This document shows positions 42,573 through 62,910 of a stretch of DNA of 64,000 bases, in pieces. The position numbers and the translations under genes are program-made. Every line of letters begins with the position of its first letter. Within the stretch, counting starts at the first letter, position 1. Origin of the DNA: Chloroflexota bacterium (GTDB lineage Bacteria > Chloroflexota > Anaerolineae > Anaerolineales > Villigracilaceae); assembly GCA_019873655.1 (NCBI GenBank), contig JAIOAU010000001.1:147984-211983 (forward strand), read 5' to 3'. Below the pieces are notes generated by a model. The model was not told the DNA's origin. It saw nothing but the letters and a program-made list of their open reading frames with translations, and searched no databases.

Positions 42573-43562
42573 TCAAGGAGCCGAAATCAGCCGCGCCGCG
42601 CCGCCGACCCGGGAGCGCAGCACCTGCCGGACCCCCGGCAGGCCGGCGACGAGGGCGGCGGCCTGTTCGGCCGCTTCGGCCTGGCAGACGACGTGGACGT
42701 TGGGGCCGGCGTCCACGGTGTAGAAGACGGGCAGGCCGCCGGCGCGGGCCTCCCGCACGGCCTGCATGACGGTCAGCGTGGCGGGCTGCCAGTAGAACAG
42801 CGGCGGCGAGGAGGTCATCATCACGGCGTGCATCATGTCCGAGTCCAGTTCGGCGACGGCGGCCAGGGCCTCGAAGTCGCGGCCCAGAATGGCGGCGCGG
42901 CACCAGTCGAGGCGGCGGGGGGCGTCGGCCAGGCGGGCGGCCTGGAGGGGCGATGTGGCGGCCAGGGCGCTGCCGCGCGCCGAGCCGGTGGCCTTGTGCT
43001 CGCGGCTGATGACGGCGATGCAGTCGGCCAGGTCCCAGTGCTCCGGCGGGGCAAGCGAGACGGCGTAGGAGTCGGCGTCGCCCGCGCCGGGCAGCCACTC
43101 GACGAAGCCGCCGGGGATGGAGCGGCAGGCCGAGCCGGAGCCGCGCCGCGCCAGGCGCGAGAGTTCGCTCTCGCTCAGGGTCAGCCCGGCGGCGCGGGTC
43201 GCCGCCAAGGCCAGGGCGGCGAAGGCCGAGGCCGAGGAGGCGATGCCCGTCCCCATCGGGAAGTTGTTCTCGCTGACCACCTCGGCGCGCCAGTCGAAGC
43301 CCGCCATCCGGCGGACGAGGTCGAGCAGGGCGGAGACGCGCGCCAGCGGTTCGCCGGTCGCGGCGACGCCGTTGAGGGTCAGCGAATCGTCTCCCGCCGC
43401 CCGGCTCTCGTTCCACGTCACGGTGGTGCGCGTGTGCAGGCCGTCCAGGTTCATGGAAATCGAACCGCTGGCGGGCAGGCGCAGGGCGTCGTCGCGGTTG
43501 CCCCAGTATTTGATGAAGGCAATGTTGGGGTGGGCGAGGGCGGTCGCAGAGCGGGTGTTCAT
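42573..43562 (-). CDS. mvaD: Mevalonate (di)phosphate decarboxylase
   Basis: A 329-residue GHMP-kinase-fold enzyme. Key features are AHPNIAFIKYWGNRDD (10-25), the phosphate loop PMGTGIASSASAFAAL (102-117), RRGSGSACRSIPGGFVEW (139-156) and the catalytic Asp284 in YTVDAGPN. In diphosphomevalonate decarboxylases the segment is usually KYWGKRD; here Asn22 replaces the lysine. Some Chloroflexota enzymes of this family act on mevalonate 5-phosphate instead of the diphosphate, giving isopentenyl phosphate, so the substrate is open. The start is the ATG at 43562. It is divergent from the UbiD-like gene across 101 bases. Confidence 0.85.
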   Translation of the reverse strand: MNTRSATALAHPNIAFIKYWGNRDDALRLPASGSISMNLDGLHTRTTVTWNESRAAGDDSLTLNGVAATGEPLARVSALLDLVRRMAGFDWRAEVVSENNFPMGTGIASSASAFAALALAATRAAGLTLSESELSRLARRGSGSACRSIPGGFVEWLPGAGDADSYAVSLAPPEHWDLADCIAVISREHKATGSARGSALAATSPLQAARLADAPRRLDWCRAAILGRDFEALAAVAELDSDMMHAVMMTSSPPLFYWQPATLTVMQAVREARAGGLPVFYTVDAGPNVHVVCQAEAAEQAAALVAGLPGVRQVLRSRVGGAARLISAP

Positions 43563-43663
43563 GGGGCATAGTTTACCACTGTCGCGGGGTCGGGTGGCCA
43601 ATCCGACCTACAACCGCTGATTGGATGCTACAATTGGGGCGAATCCACCGGTCAGGAAATCTC

Positions 43664-45025
43664 ATGTCTCTGCGCGAATACTTGCACAAACTCGATTCCC
43701 ACGGCCAACTGCTGCGCGTCTCGGCGCCCATCTCGAAGCGCCTGGAAATCTCCGGCGTGCTGAAGCGCGTCGAGCCGCGCCCGGCGCTGTTCGAGCGCGT
43801 CCGCGAGTCGGAGTTCGCGGTCGCCGGCAACCTGTTCTGCTCGAAGGCGGCCTTCGCCGACTATTTCGGCATCCGCCCGGCGGAGATCATCCCCTTCCTG
43901 ACCGCCGCCATCGAGAACCGCCGTCCGCCTGAAATAGTGGGCGACGCCCCCTGCCAGGAGGTCGTGGATTTGCACCCCGACCTCGACCACCTGCCGATTC
44001 TCTTCCACTGCGAGCAGGACGGCGGCAACTACATCAGTTCGGGCGTGGTGCTGGCGCGTCATCCGGTCTACGGGCAGAACGCCGACTTTCACCGCTGCAT
44101 GCAGTTCTCACCGACCGAGATGGCCGTGCGCGTGGTGCGCGGCCGTCACTTCGACCGCTTCCTGCGCGACCTGGGGCAGGTGGACGTGGCCATCTGCATC
44201 GGCAACGCCCCCAACATCCTGGCTGCCGCGGCCACCTCGGTCGAACTGGGCGTGAACGAACTGGAGATCGCCAACGCCATGCAGCCGTTCCAGGTGGTGA
44301 AGGCCGTGACCAGCGACTTGCTCGTCCCGGCCGAGAGCGAATTCGTCCTCGAGGGGACGGTCTACCTCGACCGGACGCACGCCGAAGGTCCGTTCGTGGA
44401 CCTGACCGAGACCTACGATGTGATCCGCCAGGAGCCGGTGCTGGAGGTCAAGGCGGTCACCCATCGCCGCGACGCCGTCTGGCACGCCCTGCTGCCCGGC
44501 GGCCTGGAGCACAAACTGCTGATGGGCATGCCGCGCGAACCGACCATTTTCCGCAAGGTCAACGAGGTCGTCCGCTGCCTGGACGTGCACATCAACCCGG
44601 GCGGCTGTTCCTGGCTGCACGCCATCGTCCAGATCGACAAGCGGGCCGAGGACGACGGGCGCAAGGCCATCGAGGCGGCCTTCGCCGGGCACAGTTCCTG
44701 CAAGCATGTCTTCGTGGTGGACGCCGACATCGACATCTACGACCCGCTCTCGGTGGAGTGGGCGATGGCGACCCGCTTCCAGGGCGACCGCGACCTGGTC
44801 GTCTATCCGCGCGCCCCCGGCTCCAGCCTCGATCCCTCCGCCGAGGCCGGGACTCACCTCACGACCCGCCTGGGCTTCGACCTGACCGCCCCGCTCGAGA
44901 CGGCCGGGAAGTCCTTCCGCAAGGCGGCGTTTCCGAAGGTGGAAGAGAAGTTTCTGGAGGAGATTTTTAAACACGAAGGGCACGAAGGAGGCACGAAGGG
45001 ACGCAAACAGAGGAATCCTTCGTGA
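43664..45025 (+). CDS. UbiD-family decarboxylase, probably anhydromevalonate phosphate decarboxylase
   Basis: A 453-residue UbiD-fold enzyme that needs prenylated FMN, supplied by the UbiX encoded three genes on. It has the GNYISSGVVLARHP segment (about 121-134) and the catalytic acidic pair in EGPFVDLTETYD (Glu241, Asp246). Being next to aconitase-X subunits, UbiX and a mevalonate decarboxylase suggests it converts trans-anhydromevalonate 5-phosphate to isopentenyl phosphate, as in the archaeal mevalonate route. The last 17 or so residues (KHEGHEGGTKG...) are encoded by a dispersed repeat and replace or extend the natural C-terminus. The start ATG at 43664 follows a GGTCAGGAAATCTC stretch. 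Confidence 0.85.
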   Translation: MSLREYLHKLDSHGQLLRVSAPISKRLEISGVLKRVEPRPALFERVRESEFAVAGNLFCSKAAFADYFGIRPAEIIPFLTAAIENRRPPEIVGDAPCQEVVDLHPDLDHLPILFHCEQDGGNYISSGVVLARHPVYGQNADFHRCMQFSPTEMAVRVVRGRHFDRFLRDLGQVDVAICIGNAPNILAAAATSVELGVNELEIANAMQPFQVVKAVTSDLLVPAESEFVLEGTVYLDRTHAEGPFVDLTETYDVIRQEPVLEVKAVTHRRDAVWHALLPGGLEHKLLMGMPREPTIFRKVNEVVRCLDVHINPGGCSWLHAIVQIDKRAEDDGRKAIEAAFAGHSSCKHVFVVDADIDIYDPLSVEWAMATRFQGDRDLVVYPRAPGSSLDPSAEAGTHLTTRLGFDLTAPLETAGKSFRKAAFPKVEEKFLEEIFKHEGHEGGTKGRKQRNPS

Positions 45026-45060
45026 TTCCTTTGTGTACCTTGGTGTCCTTTGTGTTGACT
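44969..45060. repeat. ACACGAAGG/CCTTTGTGT inverted repeat cluster
   Basis: Three CACGAAGG words (44970-44999) on the left face CCTTCGTG, CCTTTGTGT and CCTTTGTGTT words (45017-45057) on the right, forming an imperfect inverted repeat about 90 bases long. It spans the end of the UbiD-like gene and the gap before the aconitase-X gene. Confidence 0.65.
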
Positions 45061-45065
45061 CGCGT

Positions 45066-46262
45066 ATGGAACTGACCCCTGAAGAACGACGCATGCTCTC
45101 CGGCGAGGACGGCCCGGCGACGAAGAAGGCGATGGAAATCCTGCTCGCCCTGGGCGCGATTTACGGCGCCGACCGCCTGCTGCCGGTGACCTCGGTCCAG
45201 ATTTCCGGCGTCAGTTTCGACAACCTGGGCGAGGCCGGCCTGGAATTCCTGACCGAGATGGCCGAGGGCGGCGGCCGCGTCCGCGTTCTGACTACCCTCA
45301 ACCCGGCCGGCATGGACGTCGAGAACTGGCAGGCGCTGGGAATCGACCCGGACTTCGCCCGCAACCAGCAGCGCGTGATTCAGGCCTACGCCCGCATGGG
45401 CGCGGCGACGACCTGCTCCTGCACGCCGTACCTCTTCGGCAACCTGCCGCGCTTCGGCGAGCACATCGCTTGGGCCGAGTCCAGCGCCGTCTGCTACGCC
45501 AACGCCGTGCTGGGAGCGCGCACCAACCGCGAGGGCGGTCCCTCCGCCCTGGCCGCCGCGCTGACCGGGCGCACGCCGCGCTACGGCCTGCACCTGGATG
45601 AGAATCGCCGCCCCGGGCTGACGGTGCGCGTCGAGGCCGACCTGCGCGGCACGCGCGACTTCGGCGCCCTGGGCGTCGCCGTCGGGCGGGCGGTCGAGGC
45701 GCGGCCGGGCAAGCCGATTCCCTACCTGCGCGGCGTCGCCGCGGCGGGCGTGGACGAACTCAAGTCCTTCTGCGCCAGCCTGGCGACCTACGGCGGCCTG
45801 GCCATGTTCCACATGGAGGGCGTCACGCCCGAGAGCGGCCTGCACGCTCCGCCCGCCGAAACCCTGACCCTCACCCGCCGCGACCTGGACGAGGCCATCC
45901 GCTCGCTGGATTCGGCCCAGGGTGAGGCCGATTTCGTCAGCCTGGGCTGCCCGCACCTCTCGCTGGACGAGGTGCGCCGTCTGGCCGAGCGGCTGGCCGG
46001 GCGGCGCGTCCGCAAGACGTTCTGGATCACCACGTCGCGGCCGGTCAAGCGCCTGGCCGATGAGATGGGCTACACGGCGGTCATCGAGGCCGCCGGGGCG
46101 GTCTTTGCCGTGGACACCTGCTGCGTGGTCGCCCCCATCCGCGGCCGCTTCAAGGTCCTGGTCACCGACAGCGCCAAGGCCTGCTACTACGCCGCCGCCA
46201 AGAACGGCTTCGCCACCCGCTTCCTGCCTTTCGAGGAAGTCATCGAAGAGGCGTTGAAATAA
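45066..46262 (+). CDS. Aconitase X large subunit, probable phosphomevalonate dehydratase large subunit
   Basis: 398 residues of the aconitase-X catalytic family. Candidate iron-sulfur cysteines are Cys117/Cys119 (TTCSCTPYLFGN), Cys295 (SLGCPHLSLDE) and Cys352/353 (VDTCCVVAP). The large and small parts are separate genes, as in archaeal mevalonate-5-phosphate dehydratase. Other aconitase-X enzymes dehydrate cis-3-hydroxyproline, but no proline gene is near while UbiD, UbiX and mevalonate decarboxylase genes are. Proposed reaction: mevalonate 5-phosphate to trans-anhydromevalonate 5-phosphate. The start is the ATG at 45066. A strong hairpin follows. Confidence 0.85.
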   Translation: MELTPEERRMLSGEDGPATKKAMEILLALGAIYGADRLLPVTSVQISGVSFDNLGEAGLEFLTEMAEGGGRVRVLTTLNPAGMDVENWQALGIDPDFARNQQRVIQAYARMGAATTCSCTPYLFGNLPRFGEHIAWAESSAVCYANAVLGARTNREGGPSALAAALTGRTPRYGLHLDENRRPGLTVRVEADLRGTRDFGALGVAVGRAVEARPGKPIPYLRGVAAAGVDELKSFCASLATYGGLAMFHMEGVTPESGLHAPPAETLTLTRRDLDEAIRSLDSAQGEADFVSLGCPHLSLDEVRRLAERLAGRRVRKTFWITTSRPVKRLADEMGYTAVIEAAGAVFAVDTCCVVAPIRGRFKVLVTDSAKACYYAAAKNGFATRFLPFEEVIEEALK

Positions 46263-46270
46263 CATTCCTG

Positions 46271-46324
46271 GTGTCATTGCCGCCCTTCGACTTCGCTGCG
46301 CTCCGCTCAGGGCGGCGATGACAC
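46271..46324 (+). repeat. Long hairpin between the aconitase-X subunit genes
   Basis: A 15-base stem (46271-46285 with 46310-46324, one G-T wobble) encloses a 24-base loop built from the CTTCGACTTCGCTGCGCTCCG dispersed element. It is 8 bases after the large-subunit stop and 19 before the small-subunit ATG. There is no T-tract. Confidence 0.7.
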
Positions 46325-46343
46325 AAACATAATGAGGCGAATC

Positions 46344-46733
46344 ATGATTCTTACTGGCAGAAAAATCTCCCCCGGCGCGGCCTCCGGCGAGGCGCTGACG
46401 ACCACGATGGGAATCTCCTTCTACGGCGGCGTGGACCCGGAGACCGGCCGCGTCGTCGAGAAGGGCCACGAACTGGAGGGCCAGTCGGTGGCCGGGCGGG
46501 TGCTGGTCTTCCCGACCGGCAAAGGCTCGACGGTCGGCTCGTACACGCTCTACCGGCTGAAGAAGGCCGGGCTGGCCCCGTCGGCGATTGTCAACGCCGA
46601 GGCCGAGCCGATCACCGCCGTCGGCTGCATCATCGCCGGGATTCCCTGCGTGGACCACATTCCGATCGAGAAACTGCGCAGCGGTATGCGCCTGCGCGTC
46701 GACGGCGAGCGCGGCGTGGTGGAGGTCGAATGA
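46344..46733 (+). CDS. Aconitase X swivel (small) subunit, probable phosphomevalonate dehydratase small subunit
   Basis: 129 residues, matching the DUF126/aconitase-X swivel domain: MILTGRKISPGAASGEAL at the start, then VFPTGKGSTVGSYTLYRL (56-73) with the conserved Ser62, and a C-terminal GIPCVDHIP segment. The ATG at 46344 (GAGG 6 bases upstream) is preferred to the one at 46332. Its stop overlaps the ubiX ATG (ATGA). It completes the active site of the large subunit. Confidence 0.87.
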   Translation: MILTGRKISPGAASGEALTTTMGISFYGGVDPETGRVVEKGHELEGQSVAGRVLVFPTGKGSTVGSYTLYRLKKAGLAPSAIVNAEAEPITAVGCIIAGIPCVDHIPIEKLRSGMRLRVDGERGVVEVE

Positions 46734-47311
46734 AGCGCATCATCCTGGCCATCAGCGGGGCGAGCGGGGCGGTCCTGGGCGTCCGCGCCCTCGAACTGCT
46801 GCGCGCCGCGGCCGTCGAGACGCATCTCATCGTCAGCCCGGCGGCGCGGCGGACGATTCTCGCCGAGACCGGCCGCCCGGCCGAGCAGGTCGAGGCGCTA
46901 GCGTCGTTCTGCTACGCCTTTGATGACATCGGGGCGCGCCTGGCCTCCGGCTCGTTCGTGACCGACGGGATGCTGGTTGCGCCCTGCTCCATCAAGACCC
47001 TCTCGGCGATTGCCAACTCCTACGCCGACAACCTCCTCGTGCGCGCCGCCGACGTCTGCCTGAAGGAGGGTCGTCCGCTGGTGCTGGCCGTGCGCGAGAC
47101 GCCGCTGCACCGCGGCCACCTGCGGCTGATGGACCTGGCGGCCCGCGCCGGCGCGGTCATCTTTCCGCCCATCCCGGCCTTCTACGGCGGCCCGCAGACG
47201 GTGGACGACCTGGTCACGGCCCTGGCCGGGCGGATGCTGTTGCGGCTGGGAATCGAAACCGACGCCTATCCGCGCTGGGGAGGGGATGGCGCTGCTACCC
47301 AGGGCGAATAA
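46730..47311 (+). CDS. ubiX: UbiX-type flavin prenyltransferase
   Basis: A 193-residue flavoprotein with AISGASGAVLGVRALELL (7-24) and the conserved CSIKTLSAIANSYADNLLVRAADV (about 87-110) and RPLVLAVRETPLH segments. It makes prenylated FMN from FMN and dimethylallyl phosphate, the cofactor needed by the UbiD-like enzyme in the same operon. It is translationally coupled to the aconitase-X small subunit. Its stop abuts the convergent response regulator gene. Confidence 0.93.
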   Translation: MKRIILAISGASGAVLGVRALELLRAAAVETHLIVSPAARRTILAETGRPAEQVEALASFCYAFDDIGARLASGSFVTDGMLVAPCSIKTLSAIANSYADNLLVRAADVCLKEGRPLVLAVRETPLHRGHLRLMDLAARAGAVIFPPIPAFYGGPQTVDDLVTALAGRMLLRLGIETDAYPRWGGDGAATQGE

Positions 47312-47953
47312 TTATCCTTCCCCCAAGCCGTGCTGGATGGCGATGACGGCCGCCTGGGTGCGGTCGCTGACCCCCAGTTTGCTCAGGATGGCGCTGACGT
47401 GGTTGCGCACCGTGCCCTCCGAGAGCGCCAGCCGCTCGGCGATGTCGGCGTTGGTCAGGCCGCGGGCAATCAGACGCAGCACGTCCACTTCGCGCTCGGT
47501 CAGTTTTTCGGTCAGGAGCGTTTCTGGCTGCTTGCCTGCGCTGGTGACCTGTTCGAGGACTTTGCCGGCCACGCCGGGGTCGAGAAAGGTCTTGCCCGCC
47601 AGCGTGCCGCGGATGGCGCGCACGATTTCTTCGCGGGGCATGTCCTTGAGAAGGTAGCCGTGCGCGCCGGCGCGCAGGGCGTCGAAGAGCCATTCGTCAT
47701 CGTCGTAGGTGGTCAGGACGAGGATTTTGACCTCGGGGTGGCGCGCCCGAATCTGACGCGTCGCCTCGATGCCGTTCATACCCGGCATTTTCAGATCCAT
47801 CAGCACCAGGTCGGGCTTGCGGCTGGCGGTCATCTCCAGCGCCTCGGCGCCATCGCTGGCTGCGCCGACCACCTCGAAATCGCGTTCCAGTTTGAGGAGC
47901 AGTTCCAGCCCGTCGCGGACCACCGCCTGGTCATCGCAAATCAGGATTTTCAT
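47312..47953 (-). CDS. NarL/FixJ-type response regulator
   Basis: 213 residues: a receiver domain with the phospho-acceptor Asp53 (LVLMDLKMPGMNG), Thr in VLTTYDDD and Lys in GYLLKDMP, then a LuxR-type helix-turn-helix (LTEREVDVLRLIARGLTNADIAERLALSEGTVRNHVSAILSKLG, about 147-190). It is encoded after its kinase with a 4-base overlap. Confidence 0.93.
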   Translation of the reverse strand: MKILICDDQAVVRDGLELLLKLERDFEVVGAASDGAEALEMTASRKPDLVLMDLKMPGMNGIEATRQIRARHPEVKILVLTTYDDDEWLFDALRAGAHGYLLKDMPREEIVRAIRGTLAGKTFLDPGVAGKVLEQVTSAGKQPETLLTEKLTEREVDVLRLIARGLTNADIAERLALSEGTVRNHVSAILSKLGVSDRTQAAVIAIQHGLGEG

Positions 47954-49242
47954 AGCGCGGCTCCGATGGTAAGGAGGATGGTCGTCCCTTGCCCGCGACC
48001 GCTGACGATGTGCAACTCGCCGCCGACCAGGCGGGCGCGCTCGCGCATCCCCACCAGACCGAAACGGCCGCTCTTCTCGGCCGCGGCCGCGTCGAAGCCC
48101 AGACCGTCATCCTGCACGCTCAGGCGGATGGCCTGCTCCGACTGCTCCAGGCGGAGGGTCAGGCGGCGCGCCCGGGCGTGCAAAACGACGTTCTCGACGG
48201 CCTCCTGAGCGATGCGATAGATGGCCTGCTCCACGTCGGGGGAGAGGGCGGGGAGGCGGTCGGGGAGGGCCAGTTCGAGGTCCAGGCCGGCGCGGGCGGC
48301 GGCGGATTCGGCCAGTTGACGCAGGGCCAGCAGGAGGCCGAGTTCCTCCAGCGGCGAGGCGCGCAGGGCCTTCAGCGCCCGGCGCGTCTCCTCCAGCCCG
48401 GAACGGGTGGCGGCCAGCGCCTGCTCCATCAGTTCCCGCGCTTTGACGCGGTTCTTGTTCCAGTAGGCGCGGGCGGTTTCCAGTTGCACCGAAATGGCGG
48501 TCAGCGAGTGAGCCAGGGTGTCGTGCAATTCGTGCGCCAGGCGGTTGCGCTCGCGGCTGATGGTCAAACTTTCGAGGGTTGAGGCGTAATGGGTCAGGCG
48601 GGCGTTGGCCTCCTGGAGAGATTTTTGCTGCTGATGGAGGCGCTCGATCAACTGGCTGACGAAGACGCCGACGGCGACGAAACTGATCGTGCGGACGACG
48701 GCCAGGATCAGGAAAACGTTGATTCCTTGAAGCGGGACGGGCGCGAAAGGCTGCGGCAGGCCGGGGCGGGGGACAAGGAGGAAATGCATCAACGGGACGA
48801 GCAAAACGACGGTCAGAAGTTCGAGCAGGGCGGTCGCGCCGCTGAACAACAGGACGCCGGCCAGCCGGTACTGCCAGGCGGTGATGACCAGCGCGATGAA
48901 CAGGACGGGCAACTGACGCAGGGCCATCCCCTCGGCATTGGACAGGGGCCCCGGCGGCAGGCGCGGCAGGAGCAGATGATTGCCCACCAGCGGCAGGGCC
49001 GAGAGCAGGAGCAGCATCAGCGGCAGGTAGGCTACCCCCAGCCAGCGGCGCGGGCCGTCCCAGTAGGCCAGCAGGAGGAAGAGCAGCGCCGCGCAACCGT
49101 TGAGGAAATAGTAAACGAGCAACAGGTCCAGGCGCGGGTACAGCCAGCGGTCGATCAGCAGGAGGGCGAGCAGATACCCCAGCCACATCCAGGCGGCGGC
49201 GCGCAGCAGGCGGACGATGTCGGTTTCGGCGCGGAGGTTCAC
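47950..49242 (-). CDS. Sensor histidine kinase (NarX/DesK-like, HisKA_3)
   Basis: 430 residues: six or so membrane helices in the first 200 residues with little periplasmic sequence, then a dimerisation domain (ISRERNRLAHELHDTLAHSL, phospho-acceptor His240 in LHD) and a C-terminal HATPase_c domain (VQDDGLGFDAAAAEKSGRFGLVGMRERARLVGG). The start codon is GTG at 49242. With almost no extracytoplasmic loop, it should sense within the membrane, like DesK. It is paired with the response regulator. Confidence 0.9.
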   Translation of the reverse strand: MNLRAETDIVRLLRAAAWMWLGYLLALLLIDRWLYPRLDLLLVYYFLNGCAALLFLLLAYWDGPRRWLGVAYLPLMLLLLSALPLVGNHLLLPRLPPGPLSNAEGMALRQLPVLFIALVITAWQYRLAGVLLFSGATALLELLTVVLLVPLMHFLLVPRPGLPQPFAPVPLQGINVFLILAVVRTISFVAVGVFVSQLIERLHQQQKSLQEANARLTHYASTLESLTISRERNRLAHELHDTLAHSLTAISVQLETARAYWNKNRVKARELMEQALAATRSGLEETRRALKALRASPLEELGLLLALRQLAESAAARAGLDLELALPDRLPALSPDVEQAIYRIAQEAVENVVLHARARRLTLRLEQSEQAIRLSVQDDGLGFDAAAAEKSGRFGLVGMRERARLVGGELHIVSGRGQGTTILLTIGAAL

Positions 49243-51781: not shown

Positions 51782-54226
51782 ATGCAATTCGGTTACTTCG
51801 ACGACAACCGCCGGGAATATGTGATCACCCGGCCCGACACGCCCTTGCCCTGGATCAATTATCTGGGCTGCGAATCGTTTTTTGGGTTGATTTCCAACAC
51901 GGCAGGCGGGTATTCCTTTTATCGGGACGCCCGCCTGCGCCGTTTGACGCGCTATCGCTACAACAACGCGCCGCTCGATATGGGCGGACGTTATCTCTAC
52001 CTGCGCGATGAGGCCGATGGGTTCTTCTGGTCTCCAACCTGGATGCCCGTCCGCCGTCCCCTGGACGAATACACCTGCCGCCACGGTCAGGGCTACACCA
52101 TCATCGCTTCGGCGCTGCGCGGCATCGCCGCCGAGATTCGCTATTTTGTCCCTCCCGGCGAGACGTTGGAAATCTGGGAGTTGACCCTGACCAACCGGCG
52201 CGACGCCAAGGCCAACCTGTCGCTCTTTTCGGCGGTCGAGTTCTGCCTTTGGGATGCCTGGGACGACGCCACCAATTTCCAGCGCAATTTCAATACCGGC
52301 GAGGTCGAGATTGCCGAGGGGGTGATCTATCACAAGACCGAGTACCGCGAGCGGCGCGATCACTTCGCCTATTTTGCCTGCTCTGAGCCGATCGCCGGCT
52401 ACGACACCCAGCGCGAGGCCTTCCTGGGGCCTTACCGGGGCTGGGATTCGCCTCAGGCGGTGGAGGTCGGCCGGACGTCCGATTCGGTGGCGCACGGCTG
52501 GCAGCCGGTCGGCGTGCATCACGTCCGGCTTTCGCTGGCGGCCGGGGCGCAGAAGAAAATCGTCTTTCTGCTCGGTTACCACGAGAACCCGCGCGACCAG
52601 AAGTTCGACCCTCCCGGTTCGCAGACCATCAACAAGCGCACCGTCACGCCGGTCATTCACAAATATTTGCAGCCGGCCCAGGTAGAGACCGCTTTCCAGG
52701 CGCTGCGCCAGGTGTGGGATGACCTTCTGGGAGCGTTCCAGGTTCAGACGCCCGAGGTGCACGTCAACCGGATGGTCAACATCTGGAATGCCTATCAGTG
52801 CATGGTCACCTTCAACATATCGCGCTCGGCCTCGTACTTCGAGTCGGGCATCGGGCGCGGGATGGGGTTTCGCGACTCGGCTCAGGACTTGCTGGGGTTC
52901 GTCCACATGATTCCCGAGCGGGCGCGCGAGCGGCTGCTCGACCTGGCCGCCACGCAACTGCCCAGCGGCGGCGCGTTTCATCAGTATCAGCCGCTGACCA
53001 AACGCGGCAACGACGACATCGGCTCGGGCTTCAACGACGATCCGCTCTGGCTGGTGCTGGCCGCGGCGGCGTATCTCAAGGAGACCGGCGATTGGAGCAT
53101 CCTCGATGAGCAGGTGCCTTATGCCAATCAGGCTGGCACCGAGAGGCCGCTGGTCGAACACCTTCAGCGGGCGTTGCAATACACGCTCGAGCGGCTGGGT
53201 CCGCACGGTTTGCCGCTCATCGGCCGCGCCGACTGGAACGATTGCCTGAACTTGAATTGCTTTTCCGATACGCCCGGCCAGTCGTTCCAGACGACGACCA
53301 ACAAGGACGGCAAGGTGGCCGAAAGCGTCTTCATCGCCGGGTTGTTCGTCCTGGCGGCGAAGGAAATGGCCGAGATCGTCGAGCGGCTGGATTGGAAAAA
53401 AGAGGCGGGACGGTATCGCGAGGCTGCTCGTCAGATGAGCGAGGTGGTTTTGCTGCACGGCTGGGACGGCGAGTGGTTCCGGCGCGCCTACGACGACGCC
53501 GGCCGGCCGATTGGTTCGCAGCAGTGCGAGGAGGGCCAGATTTTCATCGAACCGCAGGGCATGTGTGTCCTGGCCGGGATTGGGGTGGAGAGCGGCGAGG
53601 CGCAGAAGGCGCTCGATTCGGTCGGCGACCGGCTGGCCACCGAGCACGGCATCCTGCTCTTGCAGCCGGCGTACAGCCGCTATTATCTGAACCTGGGCGA
53701 GATTTCCTCCTACCCCCCCGGCTACAAAGAAAACGCCAGCGTTTTCTGTCACACCAATCCCTGGATCATCCTGGCCGAGGCGCGGCTCGGGCGCGGCGAC
53801 CGGGCGCTCGATTACTACTTGCGCATCAATCCCTCGCGGCGCGAGGCCATCAGCGAAGTCCATCGCTGCGAACCTTACGTCTATGCTCAGATGATCGCCG
53901 GCCGCGACGCCGCCACGTACGGCGAGGCCAAGAATTCCTGGCTGACCGGCACGGCGGCCTGGAATTACGTCGCCGTCACCCAGGGCCTCTTGGGGATTCG
54001 CCCCTCTTACGATGGGTTGGAAATTCGACCCGCCCTGCCCTCCGCCTGGGAGGGATTCGAAGCCTGGCGCCTCTTCCGCGGCGTGCGCTATCACATTCGG
54101 GTCGAGCGGCGCGGACCCGGCAACGGCGTCCGGCTCGAGGTCGAGGGCCAACCCGTCGAGGGCTGCCTCGTCCCGCTCCCCCCGCCGGAGGTCCGCGAAG
54201 TTCACGTCAAAGCATTGGTTGGATAG
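51782..54226 (+). CDS. Cellobiose phosphorylase (GH94)
   Basis: An 814-residue cytoplasmic enzyme, the usual length for cellobiose phosphorylase. The start [21 protein letters not shown] and [27 protein letters not shown] are characteristic. The catalytic acid is Asp484 in [12 protein letters not shown], and [17 protein letters not shown] marks the (alpha/alpha)6 barrel. It cleaves cellobiose with phosphate to glucose 1-phosphate and glucose. First gene of a five-gene operon behind a LacI-type operator. Confidence 0.9.
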
Positions 54227-54233
54227 CAGGTTT

Positions 54234-55271
54234 ATGGAAAAGACATCCCTTCGAGCCGGTGTCAACTTGGGCGGCTGGCTTTCCCAGTATCCCGCCTACG
54301 ATCATCAACATTTCAAGACGTTCATCACTGCGGCGGATATCCGCCGGATTGCCGACTGGGGGTTCGACCACGTCCGCCTGCCGGTGGATTATCCCGTCCT
54401 GGCCGATGAGGCGCGGCCGGGCATCTATCTCAGCAGCGGATTCGACTACCTCCTGCAGGCAGTCGAGTGGTGTCGGGAGGCCGGCCTGCGGGTCGTCCTG
54501 GACTTGCACCGGGCGCCCGGCTACCGCTTCGACGCGCTGCAGGAAAACACCCTCTTCAGCGACGAGGCGAAGCAGGAACAATTCGTTGCTTTGTGGGGGG
54601 TGCTGGCCGAACGGTTGGAGGAGGTCGGGACCGACTGGCTGGCCTTCGAACTGCTCAACGAGGTGGTCCTGCCCGAAAGCGAGCCGTGGAACCGGCTGGC
54701 CCAGGCTGCGCTGGCGCGCATCCGCCAGGTGGACCGCGGGCGGCTCATCGTCATCGGCGCAAACCGCTACGCCAGCCCCGACCAGTTGCAATACCTGGAC
54801 ATCTCGCCGGACCCGCATGTCTTGTACACCTTTCATTTCTACGAGCCGCTGGTGGTCACGCACCAGCGGGCGTATTGGGTGCCGTGGCTGCTGGAGTTCG
54901 ACCGGGCGGTCGAATACCCCGGCCGCGTTCCCGAACCGAAGCGTCTGTTGAGCCTGAAGCCGGAGATGCAGGCCTTTGTCGAGAAATACAGCCGTCAGCC
55001 GATGGACGGCGAACTCTTGCGTCAATACCTTCGGCCGGCGCTCGATTTCGTCCGCCGCAGCGGGCAGACGGTGTACTGCGGCGAGTACGGCGTCATCGAC
55101 CGCGCCTCGCCCGAGACGCGCGTCCGCTGGACGCGGGATTTCGTCGAGTTGCTGCGCGAATATAATATCGGCCGGGCGTGGTGGTCCTACAAGGCGATGG
55201 ATTTTGGCCTGGTGGACGGCGCCGGCAACATCGTCAACGAGGAACTCATTCGAATTACAAGTCAGCCTTGA
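54234..55271 (+). CDS. Cytoplasmic GH5-family glycoside hydrolase
   Basis: 345 residues with no signal peptide. A TIM barrel with GVNLGGWLSQY at the start, DHVRLPVDYP (45-54), the acid/base Glu143 in FELLNEVV and the nucleophile Glu284 in YCGEYG. Family 5 includes endoglucanases and exo-acting beta-glucosidases. Lack of a secretion signal and its place between two GH94 phosphorylases suggest it trims imported oligosaccharides inside the cell. It starts 7 bases after the cellobiose phosphorylase stop. Confidence 0.85.
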   Translation: MEKTSLRAGVNLGGWLSQYPAYDHQHFKTFITAADIRRIADWGFDHVRLPVDYPVLADEARPGIYLSSGFDYLLQAVEWCREAGLRVVLDLHRAPGYRFDALQENTLFSDEAKQEQFVALWGVLAERLEEVGTDWLAFELLNEVVLPESEPWNRLAQAALARIRQVDRGRLIVIGANRYASPDQLQYLDISPDPHVLYTFHFYEPLVVTHQRAYWVPWLLEFDRAVEYPGRVPEPKRLLSLKPEMQAFVEKYSRQPMDGELLRQYLRPALDFVRRSGQTVYCGEYGVIDRASPETRVRWTRDFVELLREYNIGRAWWSYKAMDFGLVDGAGNIVNEELIRITSQP

Positions 55272-55279
55272 GGTGAGTC

Positions 55280-57694
55280 ATGCAATACGGCCATTTCGAC
55301 CCCCAACATCGCGAGTACGTCATCACCGACCCGCACACGCCGGTCAAATGGATCAATTACATCGGCACGCTGAGTTTTGGCGGCTTTGTCGATCACACCG
55401 GCGGGGCGCTGATTTGCAAGAACGACCCCACTTACAACCGAATCACAAAATACATTCAGCAAATGCCCGCCTCGGACTTCAAGGGCGAGACGCTCTACCT
55501 GCGCATCAATCAGGGGCGCGACCGAATCGTCTTCTCGCCCTTCTATGTGCCGACCCTTGACTCGTTCGACCGCTACGAGTGCCACGTCGGCCTGGGCTAC
55601 ACCCGAATCATCTCCGAGTTCTACGGCCTGCGCACCGATGTGACCATCTTCGTGCCGATGGGCGAGAGCCGCGAGATTCGCGATATTCGCATCACCAACA
55701 TTTCCAACCGCGCCCAGGATGTGGATGCCATTCCGGTGGTCGAGTACACCCATCCCAACGCCCTGCAACAGTTCACCAACGCCGATTGGGTGCCGCAGAC
55801 GATGCAGAGCCGCGCTGTCTGCGAGCCGAGCGGGTTGAAGGTGCTCTTGCAGTATCCCTTCATGTTCCGCGATCTGAAGGTCAACTATTTCACTTCCAAC
55901 CGGCCGGCTTCCTCTTTCGAGACGGTGCGGGCGCGCTTTCTGGGCAATCACGAGTATGGCACGTGGGCCAATCCGCTCAGTTTGCGCCAGGCGGAACTGA
56001 GCAACTCGGAGGCCCTGCGCGGCGACAACATCGCTGCGCTGTTGCACCATTTGGGCAAAATCCGGCCGGGCGAGACGGTGCGGCTGATCACCCAACTCGG
56101 TCAGGAGGCGAACCTGGAGGCGGCCCGCCCGGGGATCGAAAAGTTCCGCCGCCCCGAATCGGTGGACGCCGCTCTGGCCGAACTCTCGGCCTTTTGGGAC
56201 GCCTATCTCGCAGCGCTGCAGGTCGAGACGCCCGATCCCCTCATGAACATCATGCTCAACGTCCACAACCCGCATCAGTGTTACATTACGAAGACCTGGT
56301 CGCGCTATCTTTCTTACTATCAATTGGGGCTGGGATCGCGCGGCATCGGCATCCGCGATAGTTCCCAGGACGTGATGGCTGTGCTGGCTTCTATCCCGGA
56401 GGAGGGGCGTTCGTTCATCCGTTTGCTGCTTTCGATGCAGCGCCGCGACGGCTCGGCCTATCACCAATTCAACCCGCTCACGCTCGAGGCCAGCGAGGGC
56501 GATTCGCTCGAGCGCGAAGACCGGCCGCATTACTACAGCGACGACCATCTCTGGCTGGTGCTGGCGACGACGGCGTATCTCAAAGAAACCGGCGACTTTG
56601 CCTTCTTAAAGGAAAAGGTTCCCTTCTACGATAAGGATAAGAAAGACAAGCCCCTGGAAAGCGCCCCTGTGATCGAGCATCTGGAGCGGGCGCTGGCCTT
56701 CACCCGCCGGGATGTTGGTCAGCACGGCCTGCCGTTGCTGGGCTTCGCCGACTGGAACGACACCGTCAATTTGCCGGCGGGGGCCGAGTCGCTGTTTACG
56801 GCCAACTTATATGGAAAAGCCTTGCTGGAGATGATCGCCTTGCTCCAACATCTGGGGGAAAGCCAGCAGATTGCCGAGTATCTGAATGCCTACAACGAAA
56901 TGCACACGCGGGTCGAGCAATTGGCCTGGGATGGGGAATGGTACATCCGGTATTTCGATCACAACGGCAAGCCGCTGGGATCGCGCCGCAACGCGCATGG
57001 TCAAATCTATGTCAATGGGCAATCGTGGCCGATCATTTCCGGCTTTGCCTCGCGCGCCCGGGGCGAGAAAGCGATGGATTCGGTCTATCGCCGCCTGAAT
57101 ACCCGCTTCGGCATCAAACTCAGCGCCCCGGGATATAATGGCTTCGACGGCAAAATCGGCGGCATCTCGACCTATCCGCCGGGGGCGAAGGAGAACGGCG
57201 GCATTTTCCTGCACGCCAATCCCTGGGCGATCATCGCCGAGACCATCCTGGGGCGCGGCGACCGCGCCTATCAGTATTACGCCCAAATCAACCCGGCGGC
57301 CAAAAACGACATGATAGAAGTGTACGAGTGCGAGCCGTATGTGTATCCGCAAAACATTCTGGGCGACGAACACCCTCAGTTCGGCCTGGCGCGCAATTCC
57401 TGGCTTTCGGGTACGGCTTCGTGGGCCTATCAGGCGGCCACGCAGTGGATTCTGGGCGTGCGGCCCGATTACGGCGGCCTGCGCATCGATCCTTGCATCC
57501 CGGCCGAGTGGGACGGCTTCAAGATGACGCGCCGTTTCCGCGGCCATGTGTATCGCATCGAGGTCCACAATCCCAAACACGTCTGCCAGGGGGTGGCGCA
57601 AATCATCGTGGACGGCAGCAAGATTCGGGGCGAGGTGGTGCCGGTCGAACTGCGCGGGTTCGAACACAAAGTGGAGGTCTGGTTGGGAAGGTAG
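55280..57694 (+). CDS. Second GH94 glycoside phosphorylase, specificity unknown
   Basis: 804 residues. It shares the GH94 plan (MQYGHFDPQHREYVITDPHTPVKWINYIG; GIGIRDSSQDVMAVL; catalytic Asp491 in GFADWNDTVNLP) but differs from the first copy at substrate-determining places: VDHTGGAL instead of [10 protein letters not shown] near residue 35, and TVNLPAGAESL after the catalytic motif. It therefore probably phosphorolyses a different beta-linked disaccharide. Known GH94 substrates include laminaribiose, cellobionate, chitobiose and cellodextrins; I cannot choose among them. It follows the GH5 gene by 8 bases. Confidence 0.85.
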   Translation: MQYGHFDPQHREYVITDPHTPVKWINYIGTLSFGGFVDHTGGALICKNDPTYNRITKYIQQMPASDFKGETLYLRINQGRDRIVFSPFYVPTLDSFDRYECHVGLGYTRIISEFYGLRTDVTIFVPMGESREIRDIRITNISNRAQDVDAIPVVEYTHPNALQQFTNADWVPQTMQSRAVCEPSGLKVLLQYPFMFRDLKVNYFTSNRPASSFETVRARFLGNHEYGTWANPLSLRQAELSNSEALRGDNIAALLHHLGKIRPGETVRLITQLGQEANLEAARPGIEKFRRPESVDAALAELSAFWDAYLAALQVETPDPLMNIMLNVHNPHQCYITKTWSRYLSYYQLGLGSRGIGIRDSSQDVMAVLASIPEEGRSFIRLLLSMQRRDGSAYHQFNPLTLEASEGDSLEREDRPHYYSDDHLWLVLATTAYLKETGDFAFLKEKVPFYDKDKKDKPLESAPVIEHLERALAFTRRDVGQHGLPLLGFADWNDTVNLPAGAESLFTANLYGKALLEMIALLQHLGESQQIAEYLNAYNEMHTRVEQLAWDGEWYIRYFDHNGKPLGSRRNAHGQIYVNGQSWPIISGFASRARGEKAMDSVYRRLNTRFGIKLSAPGYNGFDGKIGGISTYPPGAKENGGIFLHANPWAIIAETILGRGDRAYQYYAQINPAAKNDMIEVYECEPYVYPQNILGDEHPQFGLARNSWLSGTASWAYQAATQWILGVRPDYGGLRIDPCIPAEWDGFKMTRRFRGHVYRIEVHNPKHVCQGVAQIIVDGSKIRGEVVPVELRGFEHKVEVWLGR

Positions 57695-57702
57695 GAGATC
57701 GC

Positions 57703-58134
57703 ATGGACGAGAGACTGATTCAGGTGCGCGAGTACAACGGGGAAGGTTACCAGCCGTTGGTGGACTATGGCGCCTGGCGGGTAGCCGTTCTGAACTATCT
57801 GGAGGGCCTCCATCCGGAACGAATCGATTCGGTCGAACGTCACACGGCCACCGACGAGGTCTTTGTCTTGCTCAAAGGGCAGGGGGTGCTCTTTGCAGGG
57901 GAGGGCGATCCACAGGTCGAGACGTTAGAGCCGATTGTCATGCAGACGGGCAAGATTTACAACGTTCGCAAGAATATCTGGCATACCCTTGTGCTCAGCC
58001 GGGACGCCTCGGTGCTGATCGTCGAGAACTGCGATACCGGCCGGCACAACACAGAATTTTCTCCTTTGAAGGCAGCGCATCGGAGCCTGATTCTCGAAAC
58101 GGCCCGCCGCGAACAGCCGACGTGGTGGAAGTAA
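57703..58134 (+). CDS. Cupin-like protein
   Basis: 143 residues. The start is the ATG at 57703 with AGGAGATCG upstream. A central double-stranded beta-helix-like region contains ERHTATDEVFVLLKGQGVLF (about 46-65) and IYNVRKNIWHTLVLSRDASVLIVENCDTG (about 84-112), with His47, Glu52 and His94 as possible metal ligands. It looks like a sugar-binding or sugar-isomerising cupin and sits in the phosphorylase operon; no exact family was recognised. Confidence 0.65.
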   Translation: MDERLIQVREYNGEGYQPLVDYGAWRVAVLNYLEGLHPERIDSVERHTATDEVFVLLKGQGVLFAGEGDPQVETLEPIVMQTGKIYNVRKNIWHTLVLSRDASVLIVENCDTGRHNTEFSPLKAAHRSLILETARREQPTWWK

Positions 58135-58135
58135 T

Positions 58136-59320
58136 ATGCAAGAAATCACGTTTTCGGTTTTCAATCATGGACAAGCCGCCGTGGAAAACATGCGCGGGCT
58201 GCTCAAAGAGTTCGAACAGAAGGAGGGGATTCACGTCCGCCTGGAGATGATTCCCTGGGGGACGGCCTGGGCGCGGCTGGTGGAGATTGCCCTGTATCAC
58301 ACCGGCCCGGATGTTTCGCAGGTCGGCAGCACATGGGTGGGCGATTTGGTCCGGATGGGGGCGCTGCGCGCCTTTTCCGAGGCGGAAATCGAAAGCCTCA
58401 AGGGGCCGGCGGCGTTCTTCGACAGCGTCTGGGTGCGCGGCTTCTCGGATGAACTCGACCCGAATGCGTACTACTCGATTCCGTGGACGGGAGACGCCCG
58501 GGTGGTGTATTACCGCCGCGACTTGCTCTACCGGGCCGGCATCGACGAGCGCACTGCTTTTTCCAGCCCGGCGCAGTTCGAACGCACGGTCGCCCGTCTG
58601 CGCGAAAAGGGCGGCGTCATCCCGTTTGTGCTTCCGACCCGCCGTTCGCGCATGGCGGTTCACAATCTGGCTTCCTGGGTGTGGGGAGCGGGCGGCGATT
58701 TTCTCAGCCCGGATGGCAAGCAGGTGCTGTTCCATCAACCGCAGGCGCTGGAGGGATTCAAGGCCTATTTCCGCCTGGGGCGTTATCTTGACCAGGAGCA
58801 TCATTTCATCGAGGAAACCGACGCCGATCGCTTGTTCTCTGCCGGCCAGGCGGCCATTCTGATCAGCGGCAATTGGGTGCTCCATCTTCCCGACCAGACG
58901 ACCGAGGTGCGCAACAATCTGGCGACCGCGCCGGCGCCTGGCGTGCCGTTCGTCGGCGGGCATCACCTGGTCATCTGGCGGCATACCCGCAACGAGCAGG
59001 CCGCCCGCAAACTGGTCGCTTTCCTGCACAGCGAGCGCGCCAACCAGGTCTTGTATCCCCTCTATGGTCTGCCCATCAGCGAAAGCGGCTGGAAGCGTCC
59101 CCCGTTCGATCTGGAACAGTATCAGGCGTTCAAACAGGCCTTTATCCGCGGGCGCACGTTCCCGGGCCAGCATTTGTGGGGCCTGGTCGAGAAGCGCCTG
59201 GTCGACGTGCTGGCCCAGGCTTGGGAGGAAATGTTCTCCAGTCCCGAAACGCAGTGGGATTCGATCGTCGAGCGATATATCACCGCCCTCGGAGAACGCC
59301 TGCAACTTTCCCTCAAGTGA
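58136..59320 (+). CDS. Solute-binding-protein homologue without signal peptide
   Basis: 394 residues with the fold of ABC sugar-binding proteins (SBP family 1): ITFSVFNHGQAAVENMRGLLKEFEQKEGIHV at the start, GPDVSQVGSTWVGDLVRMGAL, YSIPWTGDARVVYYRRDLL, SAGQAAILISGNWVL and a HHLVIW segment. Unlike family members it begins directly at the first beta-strand: there is no signal peptide or lipobox, and no ABC permease genes follow. It starts one base after the cupin stop, so it is a genuine last gene of the operon. It may act as a cytoplasmic sugar sensor or chaperone. Confidence 0.78.
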   Translation: MQEITFSVFNHGQAAVENMRGLLKEFEQKEGIHVRLEMIPWGTAWARLVEIALYHTGPDVSQVGSTWVGDLVRMGALRAFSEAEIESLKGPAAFFDSVWVRGFSDELDPNAYYSIPWTGDARVVYYRRDLLYRAGIDERTAFSSPAQFERTVARLREKGGVIPFVLPTRRSRMAVHNLASWVWGAGGDFLSPDGKQVLFHQPQALEGFKAYFRLGRYLDQEHHFIEETDADRLFSAGQAAILISGNWVLHLPDQTTEVRNNLATAPAPGVPFVGGHHLVIWRHTRNEQAARKLVAFLHSERANQVLYPLYGLPISESGWKRPPFDLEQYQAFKQAFIRGRTFPGQHLWGLVEKRLVDVLAQAWEEMFSSPETQWDSIVERYITALGERLQLSLK

Positions 59321-60600: not shown

Positions 60601-61524
60601 TCACAAATAGGGTTGAAGTGTATAAGCAGTTATATCTTTCTGCCCCTGTTTGTAAACCAGCAAAATGCGCTCCTCTTCAAAGCGAATAAAAATGTCCACT
60701 GTGTCTCTATTCAAAGCGTGCGCGTCGGTTGCGGCTATTAAAGATTGAACTTCATGCAATGGGAGAAAAACCACTTTCCCTCTTGGCATAAGCAAGAAAC
60801 CGCTCCCATTTTTCAACTGAGCCAGTGATTTGCTTCCTCGGAAAGTAACCTGCCAGCCTTTTTCTTTCTTACTTCCTGGGCGGATGATGGTAGGTTGCCC
60901 GTCAATGGTGCTGTACAACGTTCCCCATTCCTGAACAGTATGTCCTTTTTGGATAAGCATTTTCTTGACATCGTCGAGGTAAACTTCATCATCCTGTCGC
61001 CCAGAAATAAAGCGAGAGACCTTTTCCTTGTTGGAAAGGAGCAGGTTGATTTCCTCCCGAAAAGCGTTCACCAGAACGGTTTGCTGCGCAGAGAGAACAG
61101 GGGCGCGTGTCGCCGAAGTGACCACTTCATAGCGATTTATCTTGAACAATCGAACCAGGTAATCTTCCAAGGCAAGGCGGACGTTTTCTTCAGTCAAATC
61201 CGATTGCGGCGAACTGCGGCCATCGTTGAAAAGTAGAGCGCGTTGCCAGTTCTTGATTTTCGGCTCTGGCGTTTTGATATGAGTCGCCAAACGAGTCGAG
61301 ATGTTTTCGGTCTGACCGATATACACCCTTTTATTTGGACGTTCATCTATCAGAACATAAACCCCTGGGATGGGTGCTTGGCTGATTTCTTGAATAACCT
61401 GCGAGAGCGCGGCTTCGGAACGAGGAAAATCCCACAGTCGCAAATTTCCTAGCAGCGTTCTGGCGCGCACGATTCCTAGACCGTTCGCGGGAATGCTCCA
61501 GTAGCCGAGGTCTTCTCTGGTCAT
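60601..61524 (-). CDS. GIY-YIG nuclease, candidate restriction endonuclease
   Basis: 307 residues. The GIY-YIG core covers about 52-130: GVY (54-56), VYIG (67-70), Arg78 (STRLATH) and a candidate catalytic Glu120. The remaining 170 residues are unlike anything I recognise and include SGRQDDEVYLDDVKKMLIQKG and a glycine-rich beta region. It is encoded three bases after a DNA methyltransferase gene and shares its low GC (around 50%), so a type II restriction role is likely, with precedents such as Eco29kI and Hpy188I in the GIY-YIG class. A DNA-repair role is possible. Confidence 0.72.
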   Translation of the reverse strand: MTREDLGYWSIPANGLGIVRARTLLGNLRLWDFPRSEAALSQVIQEISQAPIPGVYVLIDERPNKRVYIGQTENISTRLATHIKTPEPKIKNWQRALLFNDGRSSPQSDLTEENVRLALEDYLVRLFKINRYEVVTSATRAPVLSAQQTVLVNAFREEINLLLSNKEKVSRFISGRQDDEVYLDDVKKMLIQKGHTVQEWGTLYSTIDGQPTIIRPGSKKEKGWQVTFRGSKSLAQLKNGSGFLLMPRGKVVFLPLHEVQSLIAATDAHALNRDTVDIFIRFEEERILLVYKQGQKDITAYTLQPYL

Positions 61525-61527
61525 TGC

Positions 61528-62910
61528 CTAATCCTTTTTGAGTGTGACGATTGTTTCGCGCAGACGGTAACTGCGCACCTGACCCGAGCGCCGTTCACGC
61601 GCTTTTTCCAGTCGCTCGATGCGCAATCCCAAATCCTGGCCAATGCGAGCCAGAATCAAATCCGTAGGCACATATACATCTGCAATCAGGCTGTCGCCGA
61701 CCACCAGGATAAATCGCCCACCTGGACGGAGAATCTGAGCCACATTTCGCATCACCCGATACATATCATCAAAGTACTTGTGAACGATAGAGGGCATATC
61801 ATGCCGGCGATAATTCCCTCTGCGCTTGATATGAAAGACAATTTGTTCTTTGATCGTTTCAATCCAGGGATGGGTATAGGGTTCGGCCTGTTCGAAGGAA
61901 CGGATGAGGCCTTTGGAGACATTATCGCACACAACCATTTCATCTTTGATATGTTTCAACTCTCGGTGACTCTGTCCATACCCTAGCCAGCCCATTTCGA
62001 TTTTGTAGTTCATCACGTAATCCAGGCCGTTCATATAGGGTGGAGAAGTGATAATCAAATCACACGGATCATCCGGTCGCGTTTGCATCGAATTCCCCCA
62101 GAGAACCTCCGCTGGCGTATCAAGGCAACCGGCATACCGGCTCTGACAGAGGCGCAAATCGTCAGTAATCTGTTGAACTTTCTGGGAAAACAGCCGCATC
62201 GGAGCGTCGTCTTCCACGACTTTTTTTGGCGCGTAGCCGAGACACGGCGCGCGTTTCAAATTGCTGCTATCTACCAGAATCGAAGCAAAGGCCAGCAGCA
62301 ACAAGTCTTTGATTTGGGCATCCTCTTCATCCCCAGGCCGAAAAGAGTCAATGCCCCCTTTCAACCGCCTGAGATGAAAAAGCACTTGGGGGCGAAACTG
62401 GGTTTCTGATTTTAGGAAAGGAGGGGGATCGGCTAGCGTCTGGCTGGCCAGCACGCCATCGGCGATCGCGAAGAGTCTCTCTACAGACACTTTCCAGGAA
62501 TTAACCTTTGTGCGAGCAATGAAGTGCAATAAGGGATTTAACTCAATTCCCCACGACGACACCCCATTCATCTTTGCCTGCACCAGAACCGTGCCACTCC
62601 CGGCAAAGGGATCCAGGACAACCGGATTCGCATACTCATGACGGTATCGCTCCAGCGTACGTTGGACAAAACTAGCCGAAAACCCTTGCACGTAAGGCGA
62701 CCAGCGGTGAACTGGCTCTGCCGTATTCGGCTGGAATTGAATGGCTTGCGGAGCGGGAATGAGTTCCTGTCCCAGTGCAGCCAGGTACGGGCGCGCGTCC
62801 TCATCAGCGCTACCATATTGCTTGGGCGAACGCAATACGTTTTTGCGACGCGCTGTCAACTCAGTAACTGTCGTTAGATCGAAAAGGGTTTCCTGAAGAG
62901 GCCTGCTCAT
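61528..62910 (-). CDS. DNA (N4-cytosine or N6-adenine) methyltransferase
   Basis: 460 residues. SAM motif I is DPFAGSGTVLVQAKMNG (residues 100-116) and the catalytic motif IV is TSPPYMNGLDYV (288-299); the SPPY form favours N4-cytosine. About 170 residues between the two motifs could hold the target-recognition domain. LRPGGRFILVVGDSL lies near the C-terminus. The composition is clearly lower in GC than the flanking genes, suggesting transfer together with the GIY-YIG gene. Confidence 0.82.
   Translation of the reverse strand: MSRPLQETLFDLTTVTELTARRKNVLRSPKQYGSADEDARPYLAALGQELIPAPQAIQFQPNTAEPVHRWSPYVQGFSASFVQRTLERYRHEYANPVVLDPFAGSGTVLVQAKMNGVSSWGIELNPLLHFIARTKVNSWKVSVERLFAIADGVLASQTLADPPPFLKSETQFRPQVLFHLRRLKGGIDSFRPGDEEDAQIKDLLLLAFASILVDSSNLKRAPCLGYAPKKVVEDDAPMRLFSQKVQQITDDLRLCQSRYAGCLDTPAEVLWGNSMQTRPDDPCDLIITSPPYMNGLDYVMNYKIEMGWLGYGQSHRELKHIKDEMVVCDNVSKGLIRSFEQAEPYTHPWIETIKEQIVFHIKRRGNYRRHDMPSIVHKYFDDMYRVMRNVAQILRPGGRFILVVGDSLIADVYVPTDLILARIGQDLGLRIERLEKARERRSGQVRSYRLRETIVTLKKD

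Follow-up and report, generated by a model that had tools for sequence, protein, structure and literature searches.

A solute-binding protein without a leader in a beta-glucan phosphorylase operon of Anaerolineae, possibly a cytosolic oligosaccharide receptor

What is a solute-binding protein (SBP) for when its gene provides no leader and no permease genes are at hand? Proteins of this kind are treated as extracytoplasmic by definition and are annotated on sight as parts of transporters. The case arises in an operon (Table 1) of the window, by which is meant the whole stretch of 64,000 nucleotides of Chloroflexota DNA analysed here. There the genes for a cellobiose phosphorylase, a GH5 endoglucanase, a further GH94 phosphorylase (GH94_b) and a cupin-like protein are followed by one whose product belongs by sequence to the SBP_bac_1 family but has neither of the transporter-defining features, leader and permeases. 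The explanation preferred, taken as a whole, falls somewhat short of probable and is put forward tentatively: a CUT1 SBP that lost its leader may now be a cytosolic receptor for beta-gluco-oligosaccharides, accessory to beta-glucan operons.

Table 1. Genes of the operon containing the SBP, in window coordinates
Feature	Coordinates	Strand	Evidence
Cellobiose phosphorylase (GH94)	51782..54226	+	8ho7 cellobiose phosphorylase, 1118.7 bits over 1-799
CelC-like GH5 endoglucanase, leaderless	54234..55271	+	PF00150 1.7e-36; CelC 1cec 5.4e-95
GH94_b, GH94 phosphorylase without assigned specificity	55280..57694	+	PF17167 8.3e-132
Small cupin-like protein, 143 aa	57703..58134	+	Cupin_2 4.9e-4 (under the curated cut-off); 3d0j CA_C3497 4.3e-12
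Leaderless CUT1-type SBP	58136..59320	+	PF01547 3.4e-22; 394 aa

Could the start simply have been mis-called, or the gene be frameshifted or decaying after a recent loss of its leader? Leader loss is, after all, a common annotation error. The open reading frame is complete, with its ATG at 58136, 394 codons and its stop at 59318-59320. The TAA of the cupin-like gene occupies 58132-58134, and a preliminary description of the locus was right that the start is fixed by a gap of one base. Upstream, the SBP frame is closed by a TGA at 58088-58090, 16 codons before the ATG, and as there is no start codon between the two, the gene cannot encode a leader. Neither signal peptide nor lipobox is present in the protein, as that description had also held, and its further statement that the protein opens directly on the first strand of the fold is borne out by an AlphaFold2 model, built from 38 leaderless sequences (mean pLDDT 93.4), in which that strand comprises residues 3-9. 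Close leaderless pairs have dN/dS of 0.07-0.22, and so are under purifying selection. With the in-frame stop, this selection, a complete high-confidence fold and the same start at the ~42 loci considered next, a mis-called start or decay is rejected on the evidence of sequence, its probability being negligible.

Is the lack of a leader a peculiarity of this one gene? Relatives of the SBP were gathered from GTDB contigs and from 396 genomes of the class Anaerolineae. At ~42 Anaerolineae loci the full-length homologues begin at the same strand as the window SBP, and none of these full-length members would gain a hydrophobic segment from any upstream extension that its frame allows. Many of their starts are pinned by the gene upstream, at +1 nt in the window, -8 nt in L011 and L009, and -4 nt in a paralog from the source genome, the second leaderless SBP of that genome being at G000:C9:81830-83032. 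(L009, counted among the ~42, bears a Bacteroidetes title; its cluster is nearly the same as that of L011, so that misbinning of the contig is probable.) Conservation of the truncated start had been suggested as a check, and it holds across these loci, the relatives of the same clade being without signal peptide. As the missing leader is common to the whole clade, it is not a local truncation. Relatives that do bear leaders are L021-L023, L093 and L100-L102, together with ten elsewhere in the phylum, and are only 28-33% identical; L100, which runs off its contig, was scored with its close kin. In a maximum-likelihood tree of 57 rows the leaderless ones fall on one side of a single branch, 41 against 16, and the leader state changes once, as compared with 14 times when labels are shuffled, though the branch itself has modest support (57/83). 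Did the leader go once, probably within Anaerolineae, with subsequent duplication of the SBPs into successive pathways, each reporting the sugar of its adjoining enzyme? That history is conceivable, though on balance we doubt it. No description of a cytoplasmic, intracellular or leaderless SBP clade was found in the open-access literature searched. Tandem leaderless SBPs occur in L009 (2440-3330 with 1092-2270) and L078 (579-1760 with 1809-2996), which suggests that tandem copies diverge in ligand.

Where, then, does the protein reside? On the presumption that exported and cytosolic proteins differ here as in the controls used, composition points to the cytosol. In the source genome a lipoprotein leader is present on seven further SBP_bac_1 proteins, whose mature parts have a pI of 4.05-4.40, while the pI of its two leaderless SBPs is 6.37 and 5.48, with cytosolic controls from the window at about 5.2-7.2 (5.5 for the cupin-like protein). 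The median R/(R+K) across the family is 0.74 in leaderless rows, where values follow those of GH94 enzymes from the loci concerned, and 0.255 in leader-bearing relatives; within the source genome alone R/K does not separate leaderless from lipoprotein SBPs and it is pI that does so. The cytosolic location proposed in the preliminary description is thereby well supported, by the missing leader at ~42 loci, by composition and by the setting in operons of cytosolic phosphorylases, and for the window SBP is highly probable.

An opposing thought is that the protein leaves the cell by a non-classical route and serves permeases encoded elsewhere, and ~8 of the leaderless loci do have CUT1 permeases within the same gene run. 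However, where such permease operons are readable they carry an SBP with its own leader: in L018, L019, L089 and on C9 of the source genome, one operon encodes the leaderless SBP along with a permease pair and a further SBP that has a leader, so that the leaderless one is not in the transporter's SBP slot there. A permease pair making use of the protein, envisaged earlier as a possible objection, is thus not what the readable runs contain. No permease is near the window SBP either; a PF00528 search gives none in the window, in accord with the preliminary description, and the nearest on the contig is at C1:97,899-99,581, ~107 kb off. With pI and R/K also cytosol-like, a role as transporter component is very improbable.

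What might such a protein bind? Its match to SBP_bac_1 scores 80.3 bits against a curated cut-off of 26, SBP_bac_8 also matches (8.7e-16), and the two-domain binding-protein fold takes up its full length. The structures closest to the model, for which neighbours were also sought by Foldseek, are 7x0i, 7c6y and 7c63, all of sugar SBPs (Z 47-48, rmsd 1.9-2.0 over 385-388 residues). The fold is in common with the beta-glycosides-binding protein of T. thermophilus (7c63 series) and CbpB of C. thermocellum (7x0i series), at 28% and 23% identity, respectively, over ~386 residues, and the two tryptophans and the acidic residue of that type are kept: in the alignment W41, W67 and D120 of the SBP are matched to T. 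thermophilus W41, W67 and E117. The latter three are probably ligand contacts, to judge from the titles of mutant structure entries (W41A, W67A and E117A). Those two proteins are SBPs of ABC importers; the window protein, in contrast, is leaderless, has a cytosol-like pI and has lost the aromatic residue of the W177 type. W177, at which the T. thermophilus protein was also mutated, is not conserved in leaderless SBPs, and the ligand may therefore differ from that of the T. thermophilus protein. The nearest exported relatives, the leader-bearing CUT1 SBPs of Anaerolineae (L021-L023, L093, L100-L102; 28-32% identical), have most conserved positions in common with it, but differ in having leaders, a pI of ~4.5, low R/K and operons that include a permease pair and are usually preceded by a LacI gene.

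All leaderless SBPs of the set have G64, W67, Y126, W183, W281, W348 and E352, and the window SBP keeps W41, W67, D120, W183, W348 and E352 from the beta-glucoside SBPs. In this site the core has been retained and one loop has diversified, which would be expected if ligands differ between pathways. The sugar ligand that the preliminary description supposed is well supported by these residues and by the phosphorylase operons, and that the window SBP binds a sugar is, judged from sequence, very likely. Might the fold instead have been turned into an enzyme, say one with epimerase, mutarotase or lyase activity towards an oligosaccharide or its phosphate? It sits in catabolic operons, and binding-protein-type folds became cytosolic enzymes in HisG, MqnA and Thi5. 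Yet leader-bearing transport SBPs share the invariant residues, W67, W183, W348 and E352 among them, so that no residue specific to catalysis stands out, and the enzymatic alternative is improbable.

What company do the leaderless SBPs keep? At 22 of the 42 loci there is a glycoside phosphorylase in the fetched neighbourhood, the types including cellobiose, GH94_b, laminaribiose (6ggy, 1169 bits), GH161 (9qqk) and the sucrose-6F-phosphate phosphorylase type (6s9v). Other loci have GH4, GH3 or GH32, and ~12 have no recognised sugar-catabolic neighbour, e.g. L086 with purine genes. The subclade made up of the window SBP, L009, L010, L011, L063 and L066 (99/97) is the one linked with phosphorylases of beta-1,3-glucan, a hint that its ligand is a laminari- or cello-oligosaccharide. 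An earlier account of GH161/GH94 clusters has them together with ordinary transporters, with no leaderless SBPs in the part of it drawn on here (PMC6484121). With 22 of 42 loci beside phosphorylases, and at least four more in operons whose complete transporter has its own SBP, the protein is, as far as gene context and sequence can tell, very probably a cytosolic beta-gluco-oligosaccharide receptor rather than part of a transporter.

Within the window operon the N-terminus of the GH5 endoglucanase, read directly, is MEKTSLRAGVNLGGWL, and GH94_b has only ~37% identity to the cellobiose phosphorylase encoded beside it. The pairing of these two phosphorylases recurs (window 51782-57694, L067, L070, L072, L080, L081, L115-L119 and L121-L124), and GH94_b, which is 60-83% identical between genomes and has a specificity close to that of no solved structure, is by its sequence a recurring, uncharacterised predicted phosphorylase of Anaerolineae. 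The cupin-like protein, with relatives in L009, L011, L063 and L115 and 3d0j as nearest structure, accompanies phosphorylase clusters even where these lack an SBP.

How tight is the tie of the SBP to the phosphorylases? Orthologues of GH94_b occur in 31 of the 396 class genomes and leaderless SBPs in 24, with both in 12 where ~2 would be expected (Fisher p 8e-9, kinship among genomes being ignored). An obligate phosphorylase subunit is, nevertheless, rejected: in 19 of the 31 GH94_b is present without a detected leaderless SBP, and in the same-genus genome G382 the order GH94_cbp, GH3, GH94_b (83%) and cupin (67%) is followed by no SBP, from which it follows that the SBP is an accessory and not a needed subunit. 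The same figures bear on a substrate holder, i.e. a soluble counterpart of a carbohydrate-binding module that would keep the imported oligosaccharide or deliver it to the cytosolic endoglucanase and phosphorylases without any signal being involved. Phosphorylases of several linkage types are the strongest recurring neighbours, the co-occurrence exceeds expectation and no regulator is conserved, all of which a holder would accommodate. But the enzymes evidently do not need it, the phosphorylase pair often being without it, a stoichiometric role demands very high abundance, and the SBP also adjoins enzymes of unrelated chemistry (GH4, GH3). A holder is accordingly unlikely, if the most plausible of the alternatives to a receptor.

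If the protein is a receptor, to what does it report? Presentation of the ligand to a LacI-type regulator, or a role as substrate buffer, had been suggested, and either may be so; a dedicated LacI partner, however, was set aside for want of support in gene context, LacI genes being present at ~6 of 42 loci and absent from the window. Searches of the window with LacI, BTAD-regulator and permease queries gave nothing significant, and no regulator gene recurs among the ~42 leaderless loci. A BTAD-AAA (SARP-like) regulator is rejected as a general partner, since it adjoins the SBP only in L018, L019 and L074; in that subclade it lies on the opposite strand directly after the leaderless SBP (6900-8879 in L018) and could be its reader. 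No kinase-regulator pair adjoins the SBP, the nearest (47312-49242, minus strand) being divergent and ~9 kb away, with no conserved linkage to the SBP seen in relatives. Nor is there fusion to a helix-turn-helix (HTH) domain, as SBP_bac_1 and SBP_bac_8 are the only matches and the fold fills the 394 residues, and no fusion protein that would name a partner was seen in the clade's open frames.

Precedents that go part of the way come from two directions. CuaD of Ruminiclostridium cellulolyticum is an SBP for cellobiose that serves signalling and not uptake (PMC10384115), and its host has a cytosolic cellobiose phosphorylase, as does the SBP operon. CuaD, however, does its work extracellularly, its binding partner there being the outer domain of the kinase CuaS, while the SBP here is leaderless and without an adjacent kinase. 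Regulators of the SgrR type consist of an HTH and an SBP_bac_5 domain (PMC13060122), and so have an intracellular solute-binding domain tied to sugar regulation, like the role proposed here; theirs is a different SBP family and is fused to the DNA-binding domain, whereas the window SBP stands alone.

The preferred reading of the SBP as a cytosolic receptor would then run as follows. It would derive from a CUT1 sugar importer, whose exported SBP lost its leader. Synthesised in the cytosol and accessory to operons for the phosphorolysis of beta-glucan, the protein would close, like a Venus flytrap, on an imported cello- or laminari-oligosaccharide. Its closed form may then be read by another cytosolic protein, the level of intracellular oligosaccharide being reported and the pathway tuned; this last step is the weaker one, there being no conserved partner gene in the leaderless loci to identify the reader. 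That the job of the SBP is sensing is a possibility to which we give rather less than an even weighting. If the clade is cytosolic, many Anaerolineae annotations as 'ABC transporter substrate-binding protein' are wrong as to both role and place, and if the receptor reading is true, a new kind of intracellular sugar receptor is at hand, with ready-made cytosolic sensors for cello- and laminari-oligosaccharides.

Two other parts of the window merit mention. Aconitase X (PF04412) is encoded at 45063-46262, with its likely small subunit at ~46345-46733, and near it are UbiD (43664-45025) and a UbiX-like flavoprotein (46730-47311); grouped with these is a diphosphomevalonate decarboxylase-like (MVD-like) protein (42573-43601, minus strand), and 42573-47308 looks like an archaeal-type mevalonate route beside an MVD-like enzyme. 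On the minus strand at 60601-62910, an N6/N4 DNA methylase-like protein and a GIY-YIG-like nuclease are encoded in tandem, with third-position GC near 0.5 as against ~0.8-0.9 in neighbours, possibly an acquired restriction-modification unit.
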